Below, one piece after another: positions 17,928 to 28,482 of a DNA stretch of 64,000 nt (position 1 is the first letter of the stretch; every line of letters starts with the position of its first letter). The DNA is from Prevotella sp. (GTDB lineage Bacteria > Bacteroidota > Bacteroidia > Bacteroidales > Bacteroidaceae), in assembly GCA_017548605.1 (NCBI GenBank), contig JAFYZT010000018.1, forward strand, positions 1-64,000, given 5' to 3'. The notes below the pieces were generated by a model. The model was not told the DNA's origin. It worked only from the letters and a program-made list of their open reading frames with translations, and did not search any database. The position numbers and the translations under genes were made by a program.

Positions 17928-19274
17928 ATGAAAATCATCATTGCAGGCGCACACGCCATAGGAAGCCACCTGGCCAAGTTACTCTCAAGAACTAACCAAG
18001 ATGTGGTACTCATCGATGATGACGAGGAGCGGTTGGCCAATGTGAGCGGTGACTATGACCTTATGACGCTCCATGCCTCTCCCACCAGCGTAAGAGCTCT
18101 CAAAGAAGCCGGTGCCGAAGATGCCGACCTGTTCATCGGTGTCACTCTTGACGAGAGCGTCAACCTGAACAGCTGCATCCTCGCCCATGCCGTGGGCGCC
18201 AAACGTACCGTTGCCCGCATGGATAACTACGAATATTCTGACGACAGCTACAAAGAATTTTTCAAGCAGTTAGGTGTTGATTCACTCATCTATCCCGAGA
18301 TTCTGGCCGCCCGCGACATCACCAACGGCTTGAAGATGAGTTGGGTGCGCCAGCGGTGGGACGTGCATGATGGAGCCTTGGTAATGCTTGGTATCAAGTT
18401 GCGAGAAAGCTGCGAGATACTGAACCAACCCCTCAAACAGCTCTGCGGACCACAAGATCCCTATCATATTGTGGCCATTAAACGCGGTGGCGACACCATT
18501 ATCCCTGGTGGCGACGACGAGCTGAAGCTCTATGACCTGGCCTATTTCATGACCACGAAGAACTATATCCCCTATATCCGCAAAATCGTGGGCAAGGAAC
18601 ATTATGTTGACGTGAAGAACGTGATGATGATGGGTGGAGGCAAGACCGCCATCCGCGCCGCCACTACGATGCCCGAATATATGGACGTGAAGATAATTGA
18701 GAGTGACGAGGAACAATGTCACCGTCTGAATGAAGAGATTGACACCGATCATGCCATGGTTATCCACGGTGATGGACGTGACCTGTCGCTGCTCATGGAA
18801 GAAGGCATCAAGAACACCCAAGCCTTCGTGGCCCTCACTGGTAACGCTGAGGCCAACATTCTTGCCTGCCTCACAGCCAAGCGGTTAGGCGTGCGCAAGA
18901 CAGTGGCCATGGTGGAGAATTTCGACTATGTGAGTATGGCCGAGAGTCTCGACATCGGCACCATCGTCAACAAAAAAGCGTTGGCCGCCAGCTACATCTA
19001 TCAGATGATGCTCGATGTGGACGTGCAGAATATCCGTTTCTTGATGACCGCTAATGCCGACGTGGCCGAGTTTACGGCTCAGCAAGGCTCTAAGGTGACG
19101 CGCAAAAGAGTTTTCGAACTGGGGTTGCCCAAGGGAGCCACTATCGGCGGTCTTGTGCGCCATGGAGTGGGACAGTTGGTGAGCGGTGGTACACAGATAG
19201 AGGCCGGCGACACCGTGGTGGTATTCTGCCATGAAGTGAACATGAAGAAAATAGAGAAATATTTCAAGGACTGA
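17928..19274 (+). CDS. trkA: Trk potassium uptake regulatory subunit TrkA
   Basis: Cytoplasmic nucleotide-gated partner of the TrkH channel. 448 residues, the standard tandem RCK arrangement: first Rossmann fold from residue 1 (IIAGAHAIGSHLAKLL) with its C-terminal lobe, then a second Rossmann fold near 225-340 (VKNVMMMGGGKTAI) and second lobe. In the family NAD(H) or ATP binding controls potassium flux. It is six bases after dxs and one base before trkH, strongly suggesting translational coupling with trkH. Confidence 0.95.
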   Translation: MKIIIAGAHAIGSHLAKLLSRTNQDVVLIDDDEERLANVSGDYDLMTLHASPTSVRALKEAGAEDADLFIGVTLDESVNLNSCILAHAVGAKRTVARMDNYEYSDDSYKEFFKQLGVDSLIYPEILAARDITNGLKMSWVRQRWDVHDGALVMLGIKLRESCEILNQPLKQLCGPQDPYHIVAIKRGGDTIIPGGDDELKLYDLAYFMTTKNYIPYIRKIVGKEHYVDVKNVMMMGGGKTAIRAATTMPEYMDVKIIESDEEQCHRLNEEIDTDHAMVIHGDGRDLSLLMEEGIKNTQAFVALTGNAEANILACLTAKRLGVRKTVAMVENFDYVSMAESLDIGTIVNKKALAASYIYQMMLDVDVQNIRFLMTANADVAEFTAQQGSKVTRKRVFELGLPKGATIGGLVRHGVGQLVSGGTQIEAGDTVVVFCHEVNMKKIEKYFKD

Positions 19275-19275
19275 G

Positions 19276-20733
19276 ATGATCAACGGCCGCCTGATATACA
19301 AGGTTTTGGGTTCACTGCTCCTATTGGAAGCCGTGTTCATGAGTTGGTGTGTCATCATGGCTTTCTGCTATGGCGAGAAGGATGCCATCCCTTTCCTCAT
19401 CTCCACTGTTATTACTACGGCTGCCGGCATATTTCTGAAATACCGAGGTAAAGATGCCACCAACGATATGAACCGCCGCGATGCCTATTTGGTTGTTACG
19501 CTCACGTGGTTGGTTTTCAGTATCTTTGGTTCCATACCCTATATGTTAAGCGGTATCCTGGTGAACCCCACCGATGCCTTTTTTGAGACGATGTCGGGCT
19601 TCACGACCACCGGTGCATCGGTTATCAACGATGTGGAGCACTCCCTCTCCCACTCTATCCTTTTCTGGCGTTCGCTGTCACAATGGGTGGGCGGTCTGGG
19701 TATCGTGTTCTTCACTATCGCCGTGCTGCCCTCGATGGTAGGCGGAAGCATGAAAGTGTTCTCTGCCGAAGCCACGGGCCCGATGCGTGCGAAGATGCAC
19801 CCGCGCCTGAGCACCAATGCCAAGTGGATATGGACAGTGTATCTGGTTCTCACCATCGCCTGCTGTCTTGCTTTCTTCTTCGGTGGTATGGATTGGTTTA
19901 GCAGTATCAATTACGCCATGACCACCACGGCCACAGGCGGTTTTTCCATTCACAACGACAGCATCGGCCATTTCAATTCGCCCCTGATAGAATACATCGG
20001 CATATTATTCCAGTTCCTTGCCGGCATAAATTTCACTGTTATCTACATGTCCATCTTCAAAGGCAAGATCAAGCAGTTGTTACGGAATTCCGAAGTGAAG
20101 TTCTACTGTCTGCTGCTGCTCATCGCCACAGTGTGGATTGGTTTGCTATTGCTCACCCGCAACGGCTATGATGTAGAGCATGCCTTTCGCAGTTCGCTCT
20201 TCCAAGTGGTGTCGTTCATCACCACCACTGGTATTTTCTGCGATGACGTGGGTCTGTGGCCCCACCTCACATGGCTCATTTTGGCCATCGTGATGTTCAT
20301 CGGCGCCTGTGCCGGCAGTACGAGCGGTGGATTTAAGAGTGTTCGTGCCCTGATGATTTTGCGTGTGCTTCAGAACGAGCTGCGGCGCATCCTTCACCCC
20401 CGTGCCGTGCTGCCCGTGAAAATCAACGGTCAGAGCATTCCTGCCGCCCAGATTAACAATCTGCTGGCGTTTCTCGCCTTATATGTCATGGCCTGCTTCG
20501 CCACTGCCGCGCTGATGACCGGCATCGGGCTCGACAGTGCCAACTCGATGGTCATCGCGCTCAGTTGCATCAGCAATGTGGGTCTACCCCTAGATGTCAT
20601 CGGTCCCGACTTCACGTGGGGTGCACTGCCAGCACTTGTAAAATGGATATGCTCAGTGCTCATGCTCATGGGGCGTCTTGAGATTTTCAGTGTGATAGTG
20701 CTCTTTACCCGCTCGTTCTGGAAAGACAACTGA
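19276..20733 (+). CDS. trkH: Trk potassium transporter, channel subunit TrkH
   Basis: 485 residues with about ten hydrophobic segments, typical of SKT-superfamily TrkH/KtrB. Selectivity-filter-like loops are visible: SGFTTTGASV, TTTATGGFS, ITTTGIF and SCISNVGLP. Inner-membrane protein that imports K+ with TrkA, directly upstream. It ends the dxs-trkA-trkH operon and is followed by a 100-base stretch of short AT-rich direct repeats before manA. Confidence 0.95.
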   Translation: MINGRLIYKVLGSLLLLEAVFMSWCVIMAFCYGEKDAIPFLISTVITTAAGIFLKYRGKDATNDMNRRDAYLVVTLTWLVFSIFGSIPYMLSGILVNPTDAFFETMSGFTTTGASVINDVEHSLSHSILFWRSLSQWVGGLGIVFFTIAVLPSMVGGSMKVFSAEATGPMRAKMHPRLSTNAKWIWTVYLVLTIACCLAFFFGGMDWFSSINYAMTTTATGGFSIHNDSIGHFNSPLIEYIGILFQFLAGINFTVIYMSIFKGKIKQLLRNSEVKFYCLLLLIATVWIGLLLLTRNGYDVEHAFRSSLFQVVSFITTTGIFCDDVGLWPHLTWLILAIVMFIGACAGSTSGGFKSVRALMILRVLQNELRRILHPRAVLPVKINGQSIPAAQINNLLAFLALYVMACFATAALMTGIGLDSANSMVIALSCISNVGLPLDVIGPDFTWGALPALVKWICSVLMLMGRLEIFSVIVLFTRSFWKDN

Positions 20734-20836
20734 GAATGTGGAATTTTGATTGTTGAATTTTGAATTGTCGCTTCGCGATGAAGTATAATCAATGAAGAAT
20801 TCGTAACTCGTAACTCGAAACTCATAAACTATATAT
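20734..20836. repeat. AT-rich intergenic short direct repeats
   Basis: Runs of TTGAATTTTGAATT-like and CGTAACTCGTAACTCGAAAC units. Similar low-complexity text recurs at 26815-26847, 45228-45318 and 63255-63305. No promoter of the TAnnTTTG form was clear here. Confidence 0.5.
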
Positions 20837-21796
20837 ATGATTTTCAAATTCAAACCAATATTGAAATCCACCCTTTGGGGAGGTGACAAGATAGTGCCAT
20901 TTAAGCATTTAGAGAGCGACCAACAACAAGTGGGCGAGAGTTGGGAAATCTCTGGTGTGGAAGGATACGAGACTGTCGTGAGCGGCGGTCCCCACAAAGG
21001 CCAACCACTGAATTCCCTATTGCACGAGATGAAAGGCCTATTAGTGGGTGCCGAGAATTACCGTCGTTTCGGCGATGAGTTCCCCCTGCTTATCAAATTT
21101 ATTGATGCTCGCCAAGATTTGTCTATCCAGGTACATCCCAACGACGAGATTGCCCAACGCCAAGGCAAGGGTCATGGGAAGACAGAGATGTGGTATGTAA
21201 TGGAGAGTGAGCCGATGGCACAGCTATACTGTGGTCTGCGTCAGGCCATCACACCCGAACGATATGAGGAGATGGTAGCCAATGATACCATTGTTGATGC
21301 CATAGCCAAGTACAATGTGAAGGAAGGTGACGTGTTTTTCCTGCCTGCCGGGCGCATCCACGCCATCGGTCCAGGTTGTTTCCTGACCGAGATACAACAG
21401 ACGAGTGACGTGACCTACCGCATCTATGATTACAAACGCAAAGACAAAAACGGCAACTACCGTGAGTTGCACACCCGCGAGGCAGCCGAATGTATCGACT
21501 ATCATGTGGAGAGCAATTACCGCACTGAATATGTGCCACGTAAGAACCAAGGCGTGACACTGTTGCAATGCCCCCATTTCAACACTGCCGTCTACGACCT
21601 TAATGAGCCGATGATACTCGACTACAGCGAATTGGACAGTTTTGTTATCCTTATCGCCCTGCGTGGCGAAGGCACATTGACAGATGATGAAGGAAACGAA
21701 GTGTCATTCCAGATGGGTGACACCCTGTTATTGCCTGCTACCACACAGAGCGTGGATGTGAAGGGCACCGTAAAATTCTTGGAAACATACGTTTAG
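20837..21796 (+). CDS. manA: type I mannose-6-phosphate isomerase
   Basis: Zinc enzyme interconverting mannose 6-phosphate and fructose 6-phosphate, feeding mannose catabolism or GDP-mannose synthesis. 319 residues, the short class found in Bacteroidetes and Firmicutes. The four expected metal ligands are visible: Gln98 and His100 in IQVHPND, Glu117 in GKTEMWY, His175 in AGRIHAIG. The ATG at 20837 begins the conserved MIFKFKPILKSTLWGG. It converges with the DUF4435 gene, 23 bases between stops; I see no terminator there. Confidence 0.95.
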   Translation: MIFKFKPILKSTLWGGDKIVPFKHLESDQQQVGESWEISGVEGYETVVSGGPHKGQPLNSLLHEMKGLLVGAENYRRFGDEFPLLIKFIDARQDLSIQVHPNDEIAQRQGKGHGKTEMWYVMESEPMAQLYCGLRQAITPERYEEMVANDTIVDAIAKYNVKEGDVFFLPAGRIHAIGPGCFLTEIQQTSDVTYRIYDYKRKDKNGNYRELHTREAAECIDYHVESNYRTEYVPRKNQGVTLLQCPHFNTAVYDLNEPMILDYSELDSFVILIALRGEGTLTDDEGNEVSFQMGDTLLLPATTQSVDVKGTVKFLETYV

Positions 21797-21819: not shown

Positions 21820-22887
21820 CTACAAGGCATCCAATGTTGACGAGAGTTCAGCGACAGCATTTGATGCCTGTTCTTTTGCCGAAGGGCTTTTTCCTTTCCC
21901 TATGAGAAACCTACGTATATCTTCCTTCAAACGGAGGTAAGGTTCCGAATGGAAATAGCCGGTATTTTTCTTGAGCATCGAGACCACTTGTTCTATGCTA
22001 TGCGTATAACACGATAGTTCATTATGCATCTGCGTACTATGGACTGCCTTATGGCGTATTTCCATCTCGCGGTCACGACGCAGACGGTCACAAATCTTGT
22101 TCATCATAGGCAGCGTCACCTTATCGAAGAGATGATGGCCCTGAATATAGAGATAAGCCGTGTCGGCAGTAACGCCGAGCTCTTTCAAACTATCCTTGGT
22201 GGCAAGGAAAGACTCTTTGGCATCGGGGTTCTCCTCCTGCAGTTGTCGCACCTTACGCCCCACTTTCTTGCGAACATTCATGATGCCACGCAAGGGGTCC
22301 TGCAGATTGAAATTGCCCGTTTCTATCACGCGGTTGAAGTCGGTCATGGTGAAGTCACCATAATGATTGGTTCGGTAGAGCATGATGTTCCACACAAAGA
22401 GTGGGAATATGGCTTGGGAGAAGAGTTTGAAATATTCCTCGAAATCCACCATTACCCGATCGTTGAGTGTCACCATTACGCACACATCGTGCAGCGAGGG
22501 CGCATAGCACTGGTAGTTCTCGATGGCATAAACATAAGTATGAAACACGTATGGACTCTCGATAATCTGTCTTGATACGGCTGTAGCCCCTTGAATGAGG
22601 AAATCGTAGTCAGCATCTACACATGCTATCATATTCTTGCCCACCTTGTCCCTGACCAGGTTCATTAGTACCTGTTTCTTTCCTTTCGACAGGTTGATCT
22701 TCGAAGGGAGCATCACCTCGAAATAACGTTTATCATTCTCGAACTCACTGAGCACCATCCGCCAGAAGAACACATCGTCGTAGCTCTCCACATAAGCCAC
22801 GATGCGTTGGCGCGCCTGTTTGGACCTCATACGGTTAGCCGCGCTGATATAATCCGACGAAAGGTTGTCACCCAGTCTCTTTCCCAT
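21820..22887 (-). CDS. DUF4435 protein, TOPRIM-like, AriB-like partner of an ATPase
   Basis: 355 residues. The N-terminal part matches the DUF4435 pattern and looks TOPRIM-like: IVAYVESYDDVFFW places an acidic residue (Glu34) after a beta-strand, and MIACVDADYDFL gives the DxD pair Asp91/Asp93, followed by AIENYQCYAPSL. DUF4435 is the family of AriB, effector of the PARIS anti-phage system, where it pairs with an AAA ATPase. Here the ATPase stop and this ATG overlap by one base (TGATG), so the two are translationally coupled. Nuclease activity is inferred from family knowledge and was not shown. Ordinary composition argues for long residence. A housekeeping DNA-metabolism role is the alternative. 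Confidence 0.8.
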   Translation of the reverse strand: MGKRLGDNLSSDYISAANRMRSKQARQRIVAYVESYDDVFFWRMVLSEFENDKRYFEVMLPSKINLSKGKKQVLMNLVRDKVGKNMIACVDADYDFLIQGATAVSRQIIESPYVFHTYVYAIENYQCYAPSLHDVCVMVTLNDRVMVDFEEYFKLFSQAIFPLFVWNIMLYRTNHYGDFTMTDFNRVIETGNFNLQDPLRGIMNVRKKVGRKVRQLQEENPDAKESFLATKDSLKELGVTADTAYLYIQGHHLFDKVTLPMMNKICDRLRRDREMEIRHKAVHSTQMHNELSCYTHSIEQVVSMLKKNTGYFHSEPYLRLKEDIRRFLIGKGKSPSAKEQASNAVAELSSTLDAL

Positions 22888-23708
22888 CAGTCAACGTCAG
22901 TAATGTCCGACACTTCCGTCACACTGTCTAACCAGCCATTCATAATGATGGCAGGTGAGTGGGTGGTCAGAATAATTTGCACATGGGGATTCAGTTCGAG
23001 CACCAAGTCAATGAGGCGTTTCTGCCATTCCACGTGCAAACTAACCTCTGGCTCATCCATGAACAGCACATAGTCCTCCCCGTCTTGGACCAGCACGGTG
23101 AGCATGATGGCCAGAATCTGTTTCTCACCGCTGGAGAGTTGATAAGGTACCAGTGTCTCGCCGATTTGAGAGAAACGTATCTCATTCTCTGTGCGCACAA
23201 TTTTCTTTCCCGTGTCAGCGAACAGTTCATCAATGATATCTTGGAAACGTTTTTTGGGCTCCGATATGTCCTGTGCTTGTTGCGCAGCATCGGGAGCACC
23301 ACTCTGCAGTACCTGGATGATACGATTACCCATGTTCACCTGATAGTCAAGGTATTTTCGTTGTAACTTAAACAGTTGCCAGTCGAGCTCCGTAGCCAGT
23401 GACAGATCCATCTTTCCTATCATGTCGTTACTCATGAGCGGCCGGTCGAAGGAACGAATCACGTCGTATCGTATCCACTTCGCCTCAGCGGGATAAACCT
23501 TCAGGTGTACTCCCTTAAGCATGTGGGAAGGGAATTCTCCGCCCGCCGACAGTCCTTTCACTACCTTATTGATAATAGTGCTCTTTCCCATACCGTTGAC
23601 ACCGCTCAGGATATTCACCCGTCGGTCGAGCCTCCACTTAATGTGTTTCTTGCCGCTCCACAGCGAGTCAATCTCTATCTCTTCTATGTATTCCGCGTAT
23701 TTCTGCAT
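22887..23708 (-). CDS. ABC/SMC-like AAA ATPase paired with DUF4435 (AriA/OLD-like)
   Basis: 273 residues with complete ABC-type ATPase motifs: Walker A GVNGMGKS (36-43), signature LSSGEKQ (191-197), Walker B LFMDEPEVSLH (Asp218/Glu219) and the switch histidine in TTHSP (His250). There is no membrane segment. The insert between Walker A and the signature is only ~150 residues, so this is a compact member of the AAA_21/OLD group and lacks the long coiled coil of SMC/Rad50. It is first gene of a two-gene operon with DUF4435, as in PARIS (AriA-AriB) and other split OLD-like systems. It would act as sensor or scaffold for the effector. PARIS AriA proteins are usually longer, so this is at most a divergent or minimal form. 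Confidence 0.85.
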   Translation of the reverse strand: MQKYAEYIEEIEIDSLWSGKKHIKWRLDRRVNILSGVNGMGKSTIINKVVKGLSAGGEFPSHMLKGVHLKVYPAEAKWIRYDVIRSFDRPLMSNDMIGKMDLSLATELDWQLFKLQRKYLDYQVNMGNRIIQVLQSGAPDAAQQAQDISEPKKRFQDIIDELFADTGKKIVRTENEIRFSQIGETLVPYQLSSGEKQILAIMLTVLVQDGEDYVLFMDEPEVSLHVEWQKRLIDLVLELNPHVQIILTTHSPAIIMNGWLDSVTEVSDITDVD

Positions 23709-23755
23709 GTTAAGTAAAAGGTTAATGGATAAAGGTGAACATATCTTGTCCAGTG

Positions 23756-23763
23756 CAAATATA
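23756..23763 (-). promoter_or_regulatory. promoter -7 box of the ATPase-DUF4435 pair
   Basis: TATATTTG on the minus strand, about 48 bases before the ATPase ATG; no clear -33 box. Confidence 0.45.
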
Positions 23764-24108: not shown

Positions 24109-26814
24109 ATGAAAAGTATCACCATCAAGAACGTAACTAAGAAGGCATTTACCCTACTATTGTTAAGTCCGTTCCTTTTTGTACCTGTCCATGCACAAAG
24201 TTCAGGGACACATACAGAAAATGACAGTCTGAGGACAGAACGAATGATTAGGAATGGTTCTGTGGACCAAGTGACTGAGGACCGTATGAACAAAGGTTTG
24301 GTCACCAACCCTATTTCCGCCTTGAGCGGACAGGCAGCAGGTGTGAATGTCAGCAATGCCGACAACCGCATGGCCATGCTGTCAAGCGTGCGTGTGCGTG
24401 GTACCACCTCACTTACCGGTGGCAACGACCCGTTGGTGGTTATCGACGGTGTGACAGCCGACCTGGCCACGCTGTCGAGCATCTACCCTGCTGACATCGA
24501 GAGTTTCACCATCCTCAAGAATGCCTCCGAGACGGCACAGTACGGTTCACGTGGTGCTTCGGGTGTCATCCAGGTGAAGACGAAGACCGGCCATGGTGGA
24601 CAGTTCCATATCTCCTATGACGGCAACATCGGTTTCCAATCGGTGTACAAAAACATAGAGATGTTGGATCGTGCCGGCTATATCCAGACAGCGAAAGACC
24701 TAGGGTTATACTACAACGACGGCGGTTTTGACACAGACTTCCCCTCGGCGATCACTCGCACGGGCGTCGTGCAGAACCACCACGTAGCTTTTAGCGGTGG
24801 CACTGAGCAGTCGAACTACCGTGCCTCGGTAGGTCTGATGGATCACCAGACGGTGATTCGCGACCGTTCGTTCAACAATTTCGTAGCCAAGCTCGACTTG
24901 ACACAAAAAGCATTCGATGACCGTCTGACCATTGACCTCGGGGTGTTCGGTTCTTCGCAACGCAACAAATACATTGTAGACCAACAAGACCTGTTCTATT
25001 CGGCTGCAGCACAGAATCCGACCTATTCCGAGGGTATGACCGACGGGGCGTGGAAGAAGAATACCACGGCTTTGTGGATTAACCATCCCTTTGCCGTGCT
25101 CCAGAAGAAAGATCATGACAAGATGCTCAGCTTCAACAGCCATTTGCAATTGGCATTCGATATCCTTCCCGGACTGAAAGCGACCGCTTTCGGCTCGTAC
25201 TCCTTCAACTCCACCGAAAACATGCAGTATTTCCCCACATGGGTATGGGCACAAGGACAGGCCTACCGTGGTGAGAAAAAAGCCGAGGACTGGTTGGCCA
25301 ACCTCAAATTAGACTATTCCCACACGTGGGGTATCCACCAGTTGCAACTCACCGCCATGGGCGAATACCAACAGAACAACCTTTCAGGGTTTTATACCAC
25401 CGTGAGAGGGTTCACAACCAACAACTTCGGTTACGACAACCTGATGGCTGGCGCACTCCGTCCCTACGGAGGCACGGGATCAAGCTACGAAAAGCCAATA
25501 CTCGTCTCTTTCATGGCCGGTGCCAAATATACTTTGATGGATCGTTACACTTTAAGCGTTAACGCACGTTATGACGGTTCGTCGATGATGGGCGAGAACG
25601 ACCGGTGGGGTTTCTTCCCCTCCATCTCTGGCGAGTGGGACATCAAGAAAGAGCCGTTCATGGCCAATGTGTACTGGCTCACCCAGTTGAAGCTCCGCAG
25701 CGGTTATGGTGTTTCTGGAAATCTGGGCGGTATTGCTTCGTTCTATTCGTTGCAGATGCTCCAACCCACGGGAGTAGTACCCCTGAACGGAGCGTCTGTC
25801 GTCACCTTGGGCTACACCCAAAACGCCAATCCCGACCTGAGGTGGGAGTCACGTTCATCGTTCAACATTGGTGTGGACCTGGGTGTATGGAACAACCGTT
25901 TGGTAATGACAGCTGAGTATTACTATTCAAAGACCACCGACATGCTTTACATGTACGACGTGAGCGTGCCCCCCTTCGCTTACAACAAACTGCTGGCCAA
26001 CCTCGGTTCGATGAGCAATGGCGGTTTCGAGTTGGGCATGGGCATCACCCCGTTACAGACCAAAGACATAGAACTGAACGTGAACGTGAACATGTCATGG
26101 CAGCGCAACAAGCTCATCTCGCTCTCCGGCTACTACCAAGACCAATTCATCACCGCCGACAACATCACCCCCATCGGGAGTCTTAGCGGTGCCGGATTCC
26201 ATGGCAACAGCGACGTGGTGTTCCGTATCGTTGGTGAGCCGCTCGGTGTGTTCTACCTTCCTCACTGCAAGGGACTGGAGGAATATGCTGACGGAGGCAA
26301 ATACTATGACTTGGAAGATGCTGACGGAGACGGCACTCCCGAAAAGCATATTTGTGGTCAAGCCACGCCGAAGATGACACTGGGTTCAAACATCAGTTTC
26401 CGTTATAAACGCTTCGACATGTCGCTGCAGATGAATGGAGCTTTCGGTCATAAGATTTACAATGGCACCGCGAACACTTACATGAACATGGGTTCATTCC
26501 CCGACTACAATGTAATGAAGGGTGCTCCAGAGCAACATATTTACGACCAGACTCCCTCTGACTATTGGTTGGAGAGCGGCAACTACTTGAATTTCGATTA
26601 CCTAACACTGGGCTACAACGTACCGATACGTTCCCGATTCATCAGTTCGCTGCGCCTGTCGCTCAGTGTGAACAACCTCGGTACCATTACGAGTTACAGC
26701 GGGTTGACCCCAATGATCAACAGTTTCGTTGTGAACAACACCCTTGGTGTCGATGACAAGCGTACCTATCCCGTTTACCGTTCCTACAGTATGGGAGTGA
26801 GCATCAGTTTCTGA
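24109..26814 (+). CDS. SusC/RagA-type TonB-linked outer-membrane transporter
   Basis: 901 residues. After a signal peptide (to VHAQ, ~30) the plug appears almost at once: ALSGQAAGVNVSNADN, SVRVRGTTSLTGGNDPLVVIDG and ESFTILKNASETAQYGSRGASGVIQVKTK, the SusC signature. A 22-strand-type barrel and an aromatic C-terminus (MGVSISF) follow. Usual SusC proteins are ~1000 residues with an N-terminal carboxypeptidase-like domain and TonB box; only about 35 residues separate the signal peptide from the plug here, so that extension is missing. Imports a large substrate with the SusD downstream. No glycosidase is nearby, so the substrate (glycan, peptide or other) cannot be told. Confidence 0.93.
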   Translation: MKSITIKNVTKKAFTLLLLSPFLFVPVHAQSSGTHTENDSLRTERMIRNGSVDQVTEDRMNKGLVTNPISALSGQAAGVNVSNADNRMAMLSSVRVRGTTSLTGGNDPLVVIDGVTADLATLSSIYPADIESFTILKNASETAQYGSRGASGVIQVKTKTGHGGQFHISYDGNIGFQSVYKNIEMLDRAGYIQTAKDLGLYYNDGGFDTDFPSAITRTGVVQNHHVAFSGGTEQSNYRASVGLMDHQTVIRDRSFNNFVAKLDLTQKAFDDRLTIDLGVFGSSQRNKYIVDQQDLFYSAAAQNPTYSEGMTDGAWKKNTTALWINHPFAVLQKKDHDKMLSFNSHLQLAFDILPGLKATAFGSYSFNSTENMQYFPTWVWAQGQAYRGEKKAEDWLANLKLDYSHTWGIHQLQLTAMGEYQQNNLSGFYTTVRGFTTNNFGYDNLMAGALRPYGGTGSSYEKPILVSFMAGAKYTLMDRYTLSVNARYDGSSMMGENDRWGFFPSISGEWDIKKEPFMANVYWLTQLKLRSGYGVSGNLGGIASFYSLQMLQPTGVVPLNGASVVTLGYTQNANPDLRWESRSSFNIGVDLGVWNNRLVMTAEYYYSKTTDMLYMYDVSVPPFAYNKLLANLGSMSNGGFELGMGITPLQTKDIELNVNVNMSWQRNKLISLSGYYQDQFITADNITPIGSLSGAGFHGNSDVVFRIVGEPLGVFYLPHCKGLEEYADGGKYYDLEDADGDGTPEKHICGQATPKMTLGSNISFRYKRFDMSLQMNGAFGHKIYNGTANTYMNMGSFPDYNVMKGAPEQHIYDQTPSDYWLESGNYLNFDYLTLGYNVPIRSRFISSLRLSLSVNNLGTITSYSGLTPMINSFVVNNTLGVDDKRTYPVYRSYSMGVSISF

Positions 26815-26847
26815 AGATTGAAAAATGAATATTGAAAATTGAAAATT
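26815..26847. repeat. AT-rich low-complexity spacer between susC and susD
   Basis: Units resembling TTGAAAATTGAAAATTATG. They create an in-frame TTG nine bases before the true susD ATG. Confidence 0.4.
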
Positions 26848-28482
26848 ATGATTTCCAAGTTATTATCAATATCGAAGAAAACGGCATGGTTGCTGATGTT
26901 GTGCTTAGGCACCTGCCAACTGACTAGTTGTCTTGACGAGAATCCACGTGACCGTCTTACCGAAGAAGAGGCTTTTGACAATGCCGAAAACCTGTTCATC
27001 AATGCGGTGGTCACGCTATATAACCACATCGGCGGCAACAGCGACGGCCAAGGCTTGCAGGGCACTGACCGCGGTTTGTACGACCTGCAGACGTTCTCCT
27101 CCGACGAGGCCATGCTTCCCACGCGCGGCGGTGACTGGTACGATGGCGGACTGTGGCAAAGTTTGTATCTGCATACGTGGGATGCTGGCTGTTCTGCCAC
27201 AAACGACACTTGGTACTATCTCTACAAGGTCATCATGCTGTGCAATCAGTCGCTGGAACACATGGATAAATATCGTTCTTTCCTCGACGAGAAGCAATAC
27301 ACGGGTTTGAATGCCGAGGTGAGAGCCCTTCGCGCCATGTATTACTGTTACCTGCTCGACCTATATGGACGAGTGCCTTATATCACCTCCACCGACATTG
27401 ATTTTGCCAAGGCTAAACAGTTAGAACGTAGCGAATTATTCAACACTATCTATAATGAGTTGACAGAGGTGCTTCCAAAATTACAACCTGACCGCAGTAA
27501 CCTCAAAGGCGAATACTATGGGAGGATGACTCAGCCCGTGGTGTGCTTCGTTTTGGCAAAGATGGCTCTCAATGCCGAGGTGTGGATGGACGATAACTGG
27601 ACCGACGGTGTACGTCCTGATGGCAAGACTCTTCTTATGCCTGACGGCCTTACTGCCTGGGAAGCTTGCCTTAAATGGTGCGACGAGTTGAAGACCACCT
27701 ATGGCTATACCCTTGAAGAAGACTACAGCACGAATTTCTCCGTCCACAACACCAAGTCGGTGGAGAATATCTTCGTTATCCCCATGGAGCCTGACACCTA
27801 TACCAACGTGTACAACTATCTTTTCCGTTCACGCCACTACAACCATGGTGCTGCCCTTGGTATGGCCTCGGAGAACGGCACCTCGGCCACCGTATCAACT
27901 GTGAAGACTTACGGTTACGGCACTGACAACGTGGACAAACGTTTCGACTTGAACTTCTACGCTGGCAACGTGATTGTCGACGGCAAGATGGTGTTGCTCG
28001 ATGATGGACAACCTCTGTTCTATGACCCCTTGGCAGTTGAACTTGACCTTACGGGTATGCCCTATGAAGACACCGCCGGTGCCCGCGTGAGCAAATACGA
28101 AGTGGACCGCACGGCACTTGAGAACGGCAGGCTGCAGGACAACGACATTGTGCTCTTCCGCTATGCCGATGTGTTGCTCATGATGGCTGAGGCCAAGGTA
28201 CGCAATGGCGAGGACGGCTCAGTTGAATTGAATATGGTCCGTTCGCGTGTGGATATGGAAGAAAGACCAGCCACGCTCGATAATATCCTCGACGAACGTC
28301 TCATGGAACTGGCATGGGAAGGATGGCGACGTCAAGACCTCATCCGCTTCGATAAGTTCCACAAGGCCTACGACCAACGTCCGCAGTTATCCAACGAAGG
28401 TGATCGCCACACCATTGTGTTCCCCATCCCCGCCCGAGTGATAGCACTCAATCCTTCGAACCGCCAGAACCCTGGTTACTGA
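26848..28482 (+). CDS. SusD/RagB-type nutrient-binding outer-membrane lipoprotein
   Basis: 544 residues starting at ATG 26848, preferred over a TTG at 26839 that lies in a repeat. Signal sequence with lipobox ending LTSC (Cys28), then CLDENPRDRLTEEEAF, the usual SusD opening, tetratricopeptide-like helices (EVRALRAMYYCYLLDLYGRVPY) and the C-terminal RagB part (DNIVLFRYADVLLMMAEAKVR-like stretch, ELAWEGWRRQDLIRF, FPIPARVIALNP). SusD caps the SusC barrel and captures substrate on the cell surface. Its stop overlaps the next start by one base. Confidence 0.95.
   Translation: MISKLLSISKKTAWLLMLCLGTCQLTSCLDENPRDRLTEEEAFDNAENLFINAVVTLYNHIGGNSDGQGLQGTDRGLYDLQTFSSDEAMLPTRGGDWYDGGLWQSLYLHTWDAGCSATNDTWYYLYKVIMLCNQSLEHMDKYRSFLDEKQYTGLNAEVRALRAMYYCYLLDLYGRVPYITSTDIDFAKAKQLERSELFNTIYNELTEVLPKLQPDRSNLKGEYYGRMTQPVVCFVLAKMALNAEVWMDDNWTDGVRPDGKTLLMPDGLTAWEACLKWCDELKTTYGYTLEEDYSTNFSVHNTKSVENIFVIPMEPDTYTNVYNYLFRSRHYNHGAALGMASENGTSATVSTVKTYGYGTDNVDKRFDLNFYAGNVIVDGKMVLLDDGQPLFYDPLAVELDLTGMPYEDTAGARVSKYEVDRTALENGRLQDNDIVLFRYADVLLMMAEAKVRNGEDGSVELNMVRSRVDMEERPATLDNILDERLMELAWEGWRRQDLIRFDKFHKAYDQRPQLSNEGDRHTIVFPIPARVIALNPSNRQNPGY

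Follow-up and report, generated by a model that had tools for sequence, protein, structure and literature searches.

A PARIS-like ATPase-nuclease gene pair nearly fixed in Bacteroidaceae, with a probable cellular role

We analyzed a 64,000-nucleotide stretch of Prevotella sp. DNA (positions 1 to 64,000 of contig JAFYZT010000018.1, assembly GCA_017548605.1; hereafter the window), which carries on its minus strand a compact two-gene operon resembling the anti-phage system PARIS, a pairing of an ATPase (AriA) with a DUF4435 nuclease (AriB). Our data show that this gene pair, which we call the core pair, is nearly fixed and vertically inherited in the family Bacteroidaceae, and we consider it probable that it encodes a regulated ribonuclease with a cellular role. 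The pair consists of the following features:

23708..22887, minus strand: AriA-like compact ABC ATPase, 273 amino acids
22887..21820, minus strand: AriB-like DUF4435 protein, predicted Toprim nuclease, 355 amino acids
22885..22889, minus strand: TGATG one-base stop/start overlap (TGA at 22889-22887, ATG at 22887-22885, one base in common)

A first-pass annotation of this DNA had described two genes joined by a one-base TGATG overlap, an ATPase with a full set of motifs and a DUF4435 protein with Toprim-like acidic residues, and each of these elements is present. Both open reading frames (ORFs) lie at the positions given above; the ATPase carries Walker A (GVNGMGKS, residues 36-43), LSSGEKQ (191-197), MDEPEVSLH (217-225) and TTHSP (248-252), and the DUF4435 protein carries E34, D91 and D93. 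The pair scores 185.7 bits against the Pfam profile DUF4435 and 72.2 bits against AAA_21 (cut-off 27 each), with 60.9 bits for AAA_15, and the key residues are invariant across 30 aligned DUF4435 proteins and 28 aligned ATPases, counting those of the window. Because the scores lie far above the cut-offs and the key residues do not vary, these motifs are not due to chance. Among PADLOC profiles, AriB matches at 7.9e-64 and short AriA at 3.7e-56, with the ATPase aligned to positions 4-251 of a 253-position model. Structure predictions point the same way: the best matches of the two predicted folds are AriA and AriB, and the modelled DUF4435 protein has the AriB fold, with a Toprim core and acidic metal-binding residues. 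The relation to AriB was detected through the Pfam and PADLOC profiles and through the fold; a search of the PDB with the AriB sequence profile returned no AriB chain, just unrelated rows up to E 5. The DUF4435 proteins also conserve G69-K70, followed by a nearly invariant K71, where a short helix begins; judging from position, our guess is that G69-K70 could correspond to K60/K64, the lysines with which AriB holds the anticodon loop.

By the published detection rule, in which a protein matching AAA_15 or AAA_21 and a DUF4435 protein score above 32/27/27 bits in a two-gene cassette (PMC9122126), the pair counts as PARIS, and the PARIS-like label of the first-pass annotation is borne out by the PADLOC and fold matches. 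The second label it offered, OLD-like, applies only loosely, PARIS being counted among the OLD proteins as their class 4 (PMC12796447). As in PARIS of E. coli B185, an ABC ATPase and a DUF4435 Toprim nuclease share one operon, with equivalent catalytic acids by motif; the solved AriA and AriB are the best matches of the predicted folds, and the AriA-type motifs are complete. Unlike E. coli AriA (464 amino acids), the core ATPase has just 273 and has lost or never had the bulk of the region linking Walker A to the signature: ~138 residues separate the two matched ATPase parts in the core pair and 313 in E. coli AriA. A long AriA with this middle region is typical of PARIS, although the published rule makes no such demand. 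The short-AriA PARIS defined in PADLOC (PDLC04164/PDLC04165) likewise combines a compact AriA, of 239-280 amino acids, with an adjoining DUF4435 AriB, and both of its profiles match the core pair. OLD classes 1 and 2, including Gabija GajA, are single polypeptides, whereas the core pair comprises two ORFs in different frames; no UvrD-like GajB helicase adjoins it, the window neighbours being manA and a gene that reads as SusC-type, on the opposite strand. Septu and retron PtuA-PtuB systems differ in pairing the PtuA ATPase with an HNH protein, PtuB. In one genome (G221, genus g22; L102 9852-10664) we observed an ATPase without ~40 middle residues, including the otherwise conserved RSFDRPL...LDYQVN region, beside a DUF4435 partner that looks intact.

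The distribution of the pair is far broader than that of a typical PARIS, which is sporadic and mobile, a pattern that forms no part of the published rule. DUF4435 was found in 191 of 200 Prevotella genomes, including all 86 with at least 90% completeness and at most 5% contamination, and in 192 of 199 Bacteroidaceae genomes representing all 22 genera sampled. The AriA model PDLC04164 matches all 14 control genomes, so we counted AriA-like matches in the family at E<=1e-30, which gave 193/199. DUF4435 is absent from seven family genomes, and six of these are the very genomes without AriA, so that both genes are missing together; in the seventh (G360), AriA is present ~240 bases from a contig end. 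Three of the genomes without both genes (G296, G312 and G366, genus g3) are single-contig assemblies and offer natural deletion backgrounds. Outside the family, DUF4435 is present in 11 of 293 genomes of a phylum sample (14/296 minus three matched family members), near the 5.2% of genomes reported for PARIS (PMC9122126). An order sample gave 48/247, four of these being family members. Only matching genomes were checked for family in the order and phylum samples, and genomes within any one sample are related, so the tallies are not independent.

The two genes also travel together. Direct BLAST found AriA and AriB adjacent and in the same orientation in 44/44 family loci from 18 genera (clustering at 40% identity recovered 41 of the AriBs and 38 of the AriAs), and a contig scan found both in 80/80 Prevotella loci, their aligned ends 0-49 bases apart in 56; these 80, being the top scorers among 580, are close relatives of the window, and some end early. 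Evolutionary distances correlate with those of RpoB (AriA r 0.66, AriB r 0.80; 0/1999 permutations as high), and the nearest sequence comes from the same genus in 34 of 36 cases, equal to RpoB itself. In a joint AriA+AriB tree all nine genera with multiple members form single clades, and 30 of 42 splits are common with the RpoB tree, compared with at most two in 500 shuffles. The pair is thus nearly fixed, chromosomal and vertically inherited in Bacteroidaceae. The first-pass annotation had put forward both a minimal defence module and a resident PARIS relative with a core cellular role; near-universality in the family and vertical inheritance tell against the former, and the latter fits better.

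The standard annotation would be an ordinary, horizontally acquired PARIS. Well-matching PADLOC and Pfam profiles are what this predicts, but we give it almost no credence, since a near-universal distribution and a vertical tree contradict it. Collections of mobile elements point the same way: there was no match in 50,697 phage records, and of 72,556 plasmid records just two matched (OY726067.1 and NZ_OY725943.1), both typed as non-mobilizable. The annotated one, B. finegoldii 'plasmid 41', carries mgtE, rsmA, meaB and other chromosome-type genes in a neighbourhood like that of genus g3 and looks like a mislabelled stretch of chromosome; the other, a 140 kb record of P. massiliensis, has no annotated gene in the matching stretch. 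Composition, called native in the first-pass annotation, is inside the range of the window, with G+C of 0.47-0.49 near the pair. We rejected a plasmid-borne origin on the two non-mobilizable records, the annotated one chromosome-like, and a phage origin on the zero phage-record matches and the single distant relative in IMG/VR, found at 28% identity by a pattern-based scan that is blind to divergent copies. That relative (L266 4988-7017, IMGVR_UViG_2595699002_000001) is an overlapping pair of AriA-like (339 amino acids) and AriB-like (338 amino acids) genes; it shows 28% identity to the DUF4435 protein of the window and is one of the closest outgroups to the core clade, and a gene that by eye looks VRR-NUC-like lies nearby.

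A mobile-looking PARIS does exist in the same family. A second PARIS of the short-AriA type (L246-L256) occurs in 11 of 199 family genomes, where the AriA model matches at 1e-95 to 1e-118, compared with best matches of 1e-32 to 1e-66 in genomes with the core pair alone. All 11 loci carry AriA and AriB (two AriBs, in L249 and L256, are short), all 11 genomes have at least two DUF4435 matches, and the core AriA is visible among the matches listed in ten of them, G350 being the exception. In both AriA and AriB trees the second PARIS forms a clade apart from the core pair, although these trees were made by a quick method without a mixture model and gave long-branch warnings. Some copies are near-identical or identical: one locus (L246/L247) shows 100% identity across 11,634 bp in a genome of genus g11 and one of genus g6, and a locus of the same type in G374 is 95% identical, whereas the core AriBs of these g11 and g6 genomes share 66.6% of residues and their core loci give no blastn match. 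The simplest reading of the identical locus is recent transfer, although both genomes are multi-contig and contamination is a possible cause. These results suggest that the PARIS superfamily is present in these bacteria in both a mobile-looking and a fixed form. For the core pair, we reject an ordinary mobile PARIS on distribution, tree and the separate clade of the second PARIS. The published rule counts the core pair as PARIS; its clade, architecture and evolution mark it as a distinct core variant.

We compared selection on the pair with that on six neighbouring genes. Against the three nearest species, dN/dS was 0.007-0.011 for AriA, below all six neighbours measured, and 0.045-0.056 for AriB, similar to dxs (0.046-0.065) and manA (0.051-0.062); the remaining neighbours gave 0.012-0.033 (trkA), 0.044-0.063 (trkH), 0.057-0.069 (SusC) and 0.089-0.104 (SusD), all of these being rough values, from few pairs and with dS saturated in many comparisons (mostly >0.8 for the nearest species). 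With the same reservation, farther species gave 0.031-0.053 for the ATPase and 0.081-0.100 for the DUF4435 protein, other core pairs 0.022-0.070, and the second PARIS 0.061-0.164 (0.061-0.134 for the mobile AriAs). All dN/dS values point to purifying selection.

The two genes part company in another Bacteroidales family, f103, with 16 genera. There, DUF4435 is present in 59 of 60 genomes and an AriA orthologue in just 11, as judged by the core AriA profile of the Bacteroidaceae at E<=1e-40 (a partial match in G941, at 1.9e-14, falls below this line). AriA adjoins AriB in six of the 11 and is unlinked in five, lying ~50 kb off in one, 150 kb off in two and on a different contig in the remaining two. 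Of the 49 genomes without AriA, which come from nine genera, 48 retain AriB, and E34, D91 and D93 are retained in all 20 f103 loci examined, 15 of them orphans. Since deletion of either PARIS gene in E. coli was non-toxic and abolished defence (PMC9122126), long retention of AriB without AriA, with its active site intact, argues that AriB does work of its own.

The orphan lineages also point to a candidate contact between the two proteins, at the following position in the window:

22840..22875, minus strand: N-terminal stretch of AriB with L5, S11, Y13 and A16, predicted AriA-docking motif

At least three of these four residues are present in 45/45 AriBs of the Bacteroidaceae and in all eight f103 AriBs that have AriA in the genome, three of which have it unlinked, compared with at most one of four in 22/22 orphan AriBs from six f103 genera. 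We chose the motif on 20 of the 30 f103 proteins; the remaining ten (three with AriA, seven without) all conform. On this sequence pattern we predict that the segment docks AriA.

The retention of AriB bears on whether the pair is a chromosomal toxin-antitoxin or growth-control module, with AriB as a toxin held by AriA and freed under stress. The overlapping two-gene operon suits such a module, as does the sequestration of AriB by AriA in E. coli PARIS (PMC12409363; PMC11455837), a system that PMC11455837 calls toxin-antitoxin. However, a toxin would not be expected to persist with its active site intact once the antitoxin is lost, as seen in the six f103 genera examined, and AriA is missing in nine f103 genera. 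Either PARIS gene of E. coli could be deleted without toxicity, and the authors excluded a toxin-antitoxin system (PMC9122126); fixation without spread would also be unusual for an addiction module. We regard this explanation as improbable.

A stronger competitor is that the core pair is an innate-immune system that has become fixed, in which AriA senses a phage protein and releases AriB, tRNA is cut and growth stops. In PARIS itself the trigger is an anti-restriction protein of the phage, and the tRNA that freed AriB cleaves is tRNA-Lys. The folds and active sites are the same as in PARIS, the pair scores as PARIS by the published rule, a second PARIS of the same superfamily is present in 11 of the same 199 genomes, a distant relative lies on an IMG/VR contig, and a few species do not have the pair, as can happen with a defence gene. 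Against this, AriB without AriA in 48 of 49 f103 genomes, and AriA unlinked in five of 11, are ill-suited to a sensor-effector cassette; by the rough dN/dS estimates, AriA of the window (0.007-0.011), like other core pairs, evolves more slowly than the mobile AriAs; and each genus forms one clade in the AriA+AriB tree. We consider fixed immunity rather unlikely, if the most credible of the competing explanations.

Our preferred explanation is that the pair is a domesticated, regulated ribonuclease of the PARIS family with a cellular role, to which we assign a probability of roughly 0.6. The pair is a member of the PARIS (class 4 OLD) superfamily combining a compact AriA-like ABC ATPase with an AriB-like predicted Toprim ribonuclease. 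AriB would use two metal ions and act on structured RNA; here the mechanism of E. coli AriB, which cleaves the tRNA anticodon stem by a two-metal mechanism (PMC12409363), is carried over on the strength of fold and residues. The ATPase may bind the nuclease through the N-terminal segment of AriB and gate it according to its own ATP state. The job would be cellular, such as RNA quality control, RNA processing or stress-controlled tRNA cleavage, and not that of a mobile abortive-infection device. Near-fixation, together with the persistence of AriB where AriA is lost, suggests an everyday cellular job as opposed to a mobile defence cassette. There is precedent in Cran1, an OLD-family ATPase-Toprim protein that is conserved in its lineage and was recruited to a cellular, cell-cycle role (PMC12796447). 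Cran1, according to the same source, is archaeal (Sulfolobales), a single polypeptide, a DNA nickase and undeletable, unlike the two-gene core pair, which is absent from a few genomes.

More tentatively, and at somewhat less than even odds, AriB/DUF4435 may be a housekeeping ribonuclease of Bacteroidales at large, gated by AriA in Bacteroidaceae, free of AriA in most of f103 and perhaps fused to an ATPase in further families. Mobile PARIS and the core module would then be two branches of one superfamily, and either an immune effector was domesticated for core RNA metabolism or PARIS was built from a core RNA-control module.

Several observations weigh against a cellular role. Core conservation does not exclude defence and cannot alone decide between a cellular role and immunity. 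Some species can do without the pair, both genes being absent from 6 of 199 family genomes, and two of the 191 Prevotella matches, in G012 (2.7e-9) and G158 (2.1e-4), are so weak that they may represent something other than the core gene. AriBs without AriA evolve faster (dN/dS 0.093-0.191, again rough). In an AriB tree built without the N-terminus, AriA-bearing f103 lineages fall outside and beside the orphans, so that AriA need have been lost just once or twice; the docking motif was chosen post hoc and likewise rests on few evolutionary events. The genes around the pair name no pathway, and in a wider draw of loci trkA and dxs lie near it in just 9 of 44 family loci (six genera), including 2 of the 10 from Prevotella, which weakens the argument from the locus and not that from the tree. 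G012, a genome 99% complete whose sole DUF4435 match is the weak one, may hold a degraded, broken or different copy.

Searches of an open-licence paper library, in which DUF4435 is mentioned by five papers, listed no report of a core PARIS-like pair in Bacteroidales, and none on searching it for domesticated Toprim and OLD proteins. If our explanation is true, the pair would provide a bacterial example, in a major gut family, of an OLD-family effector that serves a core function, and raises the question of what AriB cuts when phage is absent. Defence-finding rules will label nearly the whole family PARIS-positive, inflating defence counts for Bacteroides and Prevotella. The orphan lineages, in turn, predict which segment of AriB docks AriA.

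Turning to the surroundings of the pair, its nearer relatives have in common a set of convergent neighbours that we identified by Pfam searches of trkA and trkH relatives and of the window's manA:

17928..21796, plus strand: trkA, trkH and manA, convergent neighbours of the pair

In the 80 Prevotella loci, trkH lies near the pair in 58, trkA in 56, dxs in 50 and manA in 44. Conservation at this locus across Prevotella, a point raised in the first-pass annotation, therefore holds for presence and descent, and for synteny among nearer relatives, but not in the wider draw. A gene for an EamA-type transporter, mostly divergent, recurs in 17 of the 44 family loci. The locus is conserved among near relatives and parts of it recur between genera, with frequent relocation of the pair. 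A divergent SusC/SusD-like gene pair at 24109-28482 of the window, upstream of the ATPase, recurs in two of the 80 Prevotella loci, L161 and L162, and is not seen in the other 78, some of them cut short. Seven of the 44 family loci, from six genera, have upstream of the pair a superfamily 1 helicase gene (AAA_11/AAA_12, 457-661 amino acids; for example L080 12196-14070), sometimes with the EamA transporter gene in between; it is a possible functional neighbour.

Reading the sequence upstream of the ATPase, we noted one candidate promoter element, with no clear -33 partner seen upstream of it:

23763-23756, minus strand: TATATTTG, candidate -7 box resembling TAnnTTTG (which we take to be the consensus), ~50 bases upstream of the ATPase start

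Finally, fused ATPase-DUF4435 proteins occur in two more Bacteroidales families, f22 and f54, with both domains in one chain of ~520-570 amino acids and a divergent DUF4435 part. DUF4435 is present in 4/4 genomes of f54 and in 75/79 genomes of f22 (24 of its 26 genera), where it nearly always lies inside one open frame of ~490-635 amino acids. In nine long proteins (L107-L115) ATPase motifs, judged by eye, precede the DUF4435 part; the core AriA profile gives weak matches to eight of them, the core AriB profile matches none, and we claim no orthology. The long single-chain proteins of f22 are a possible parallel case of fixation.

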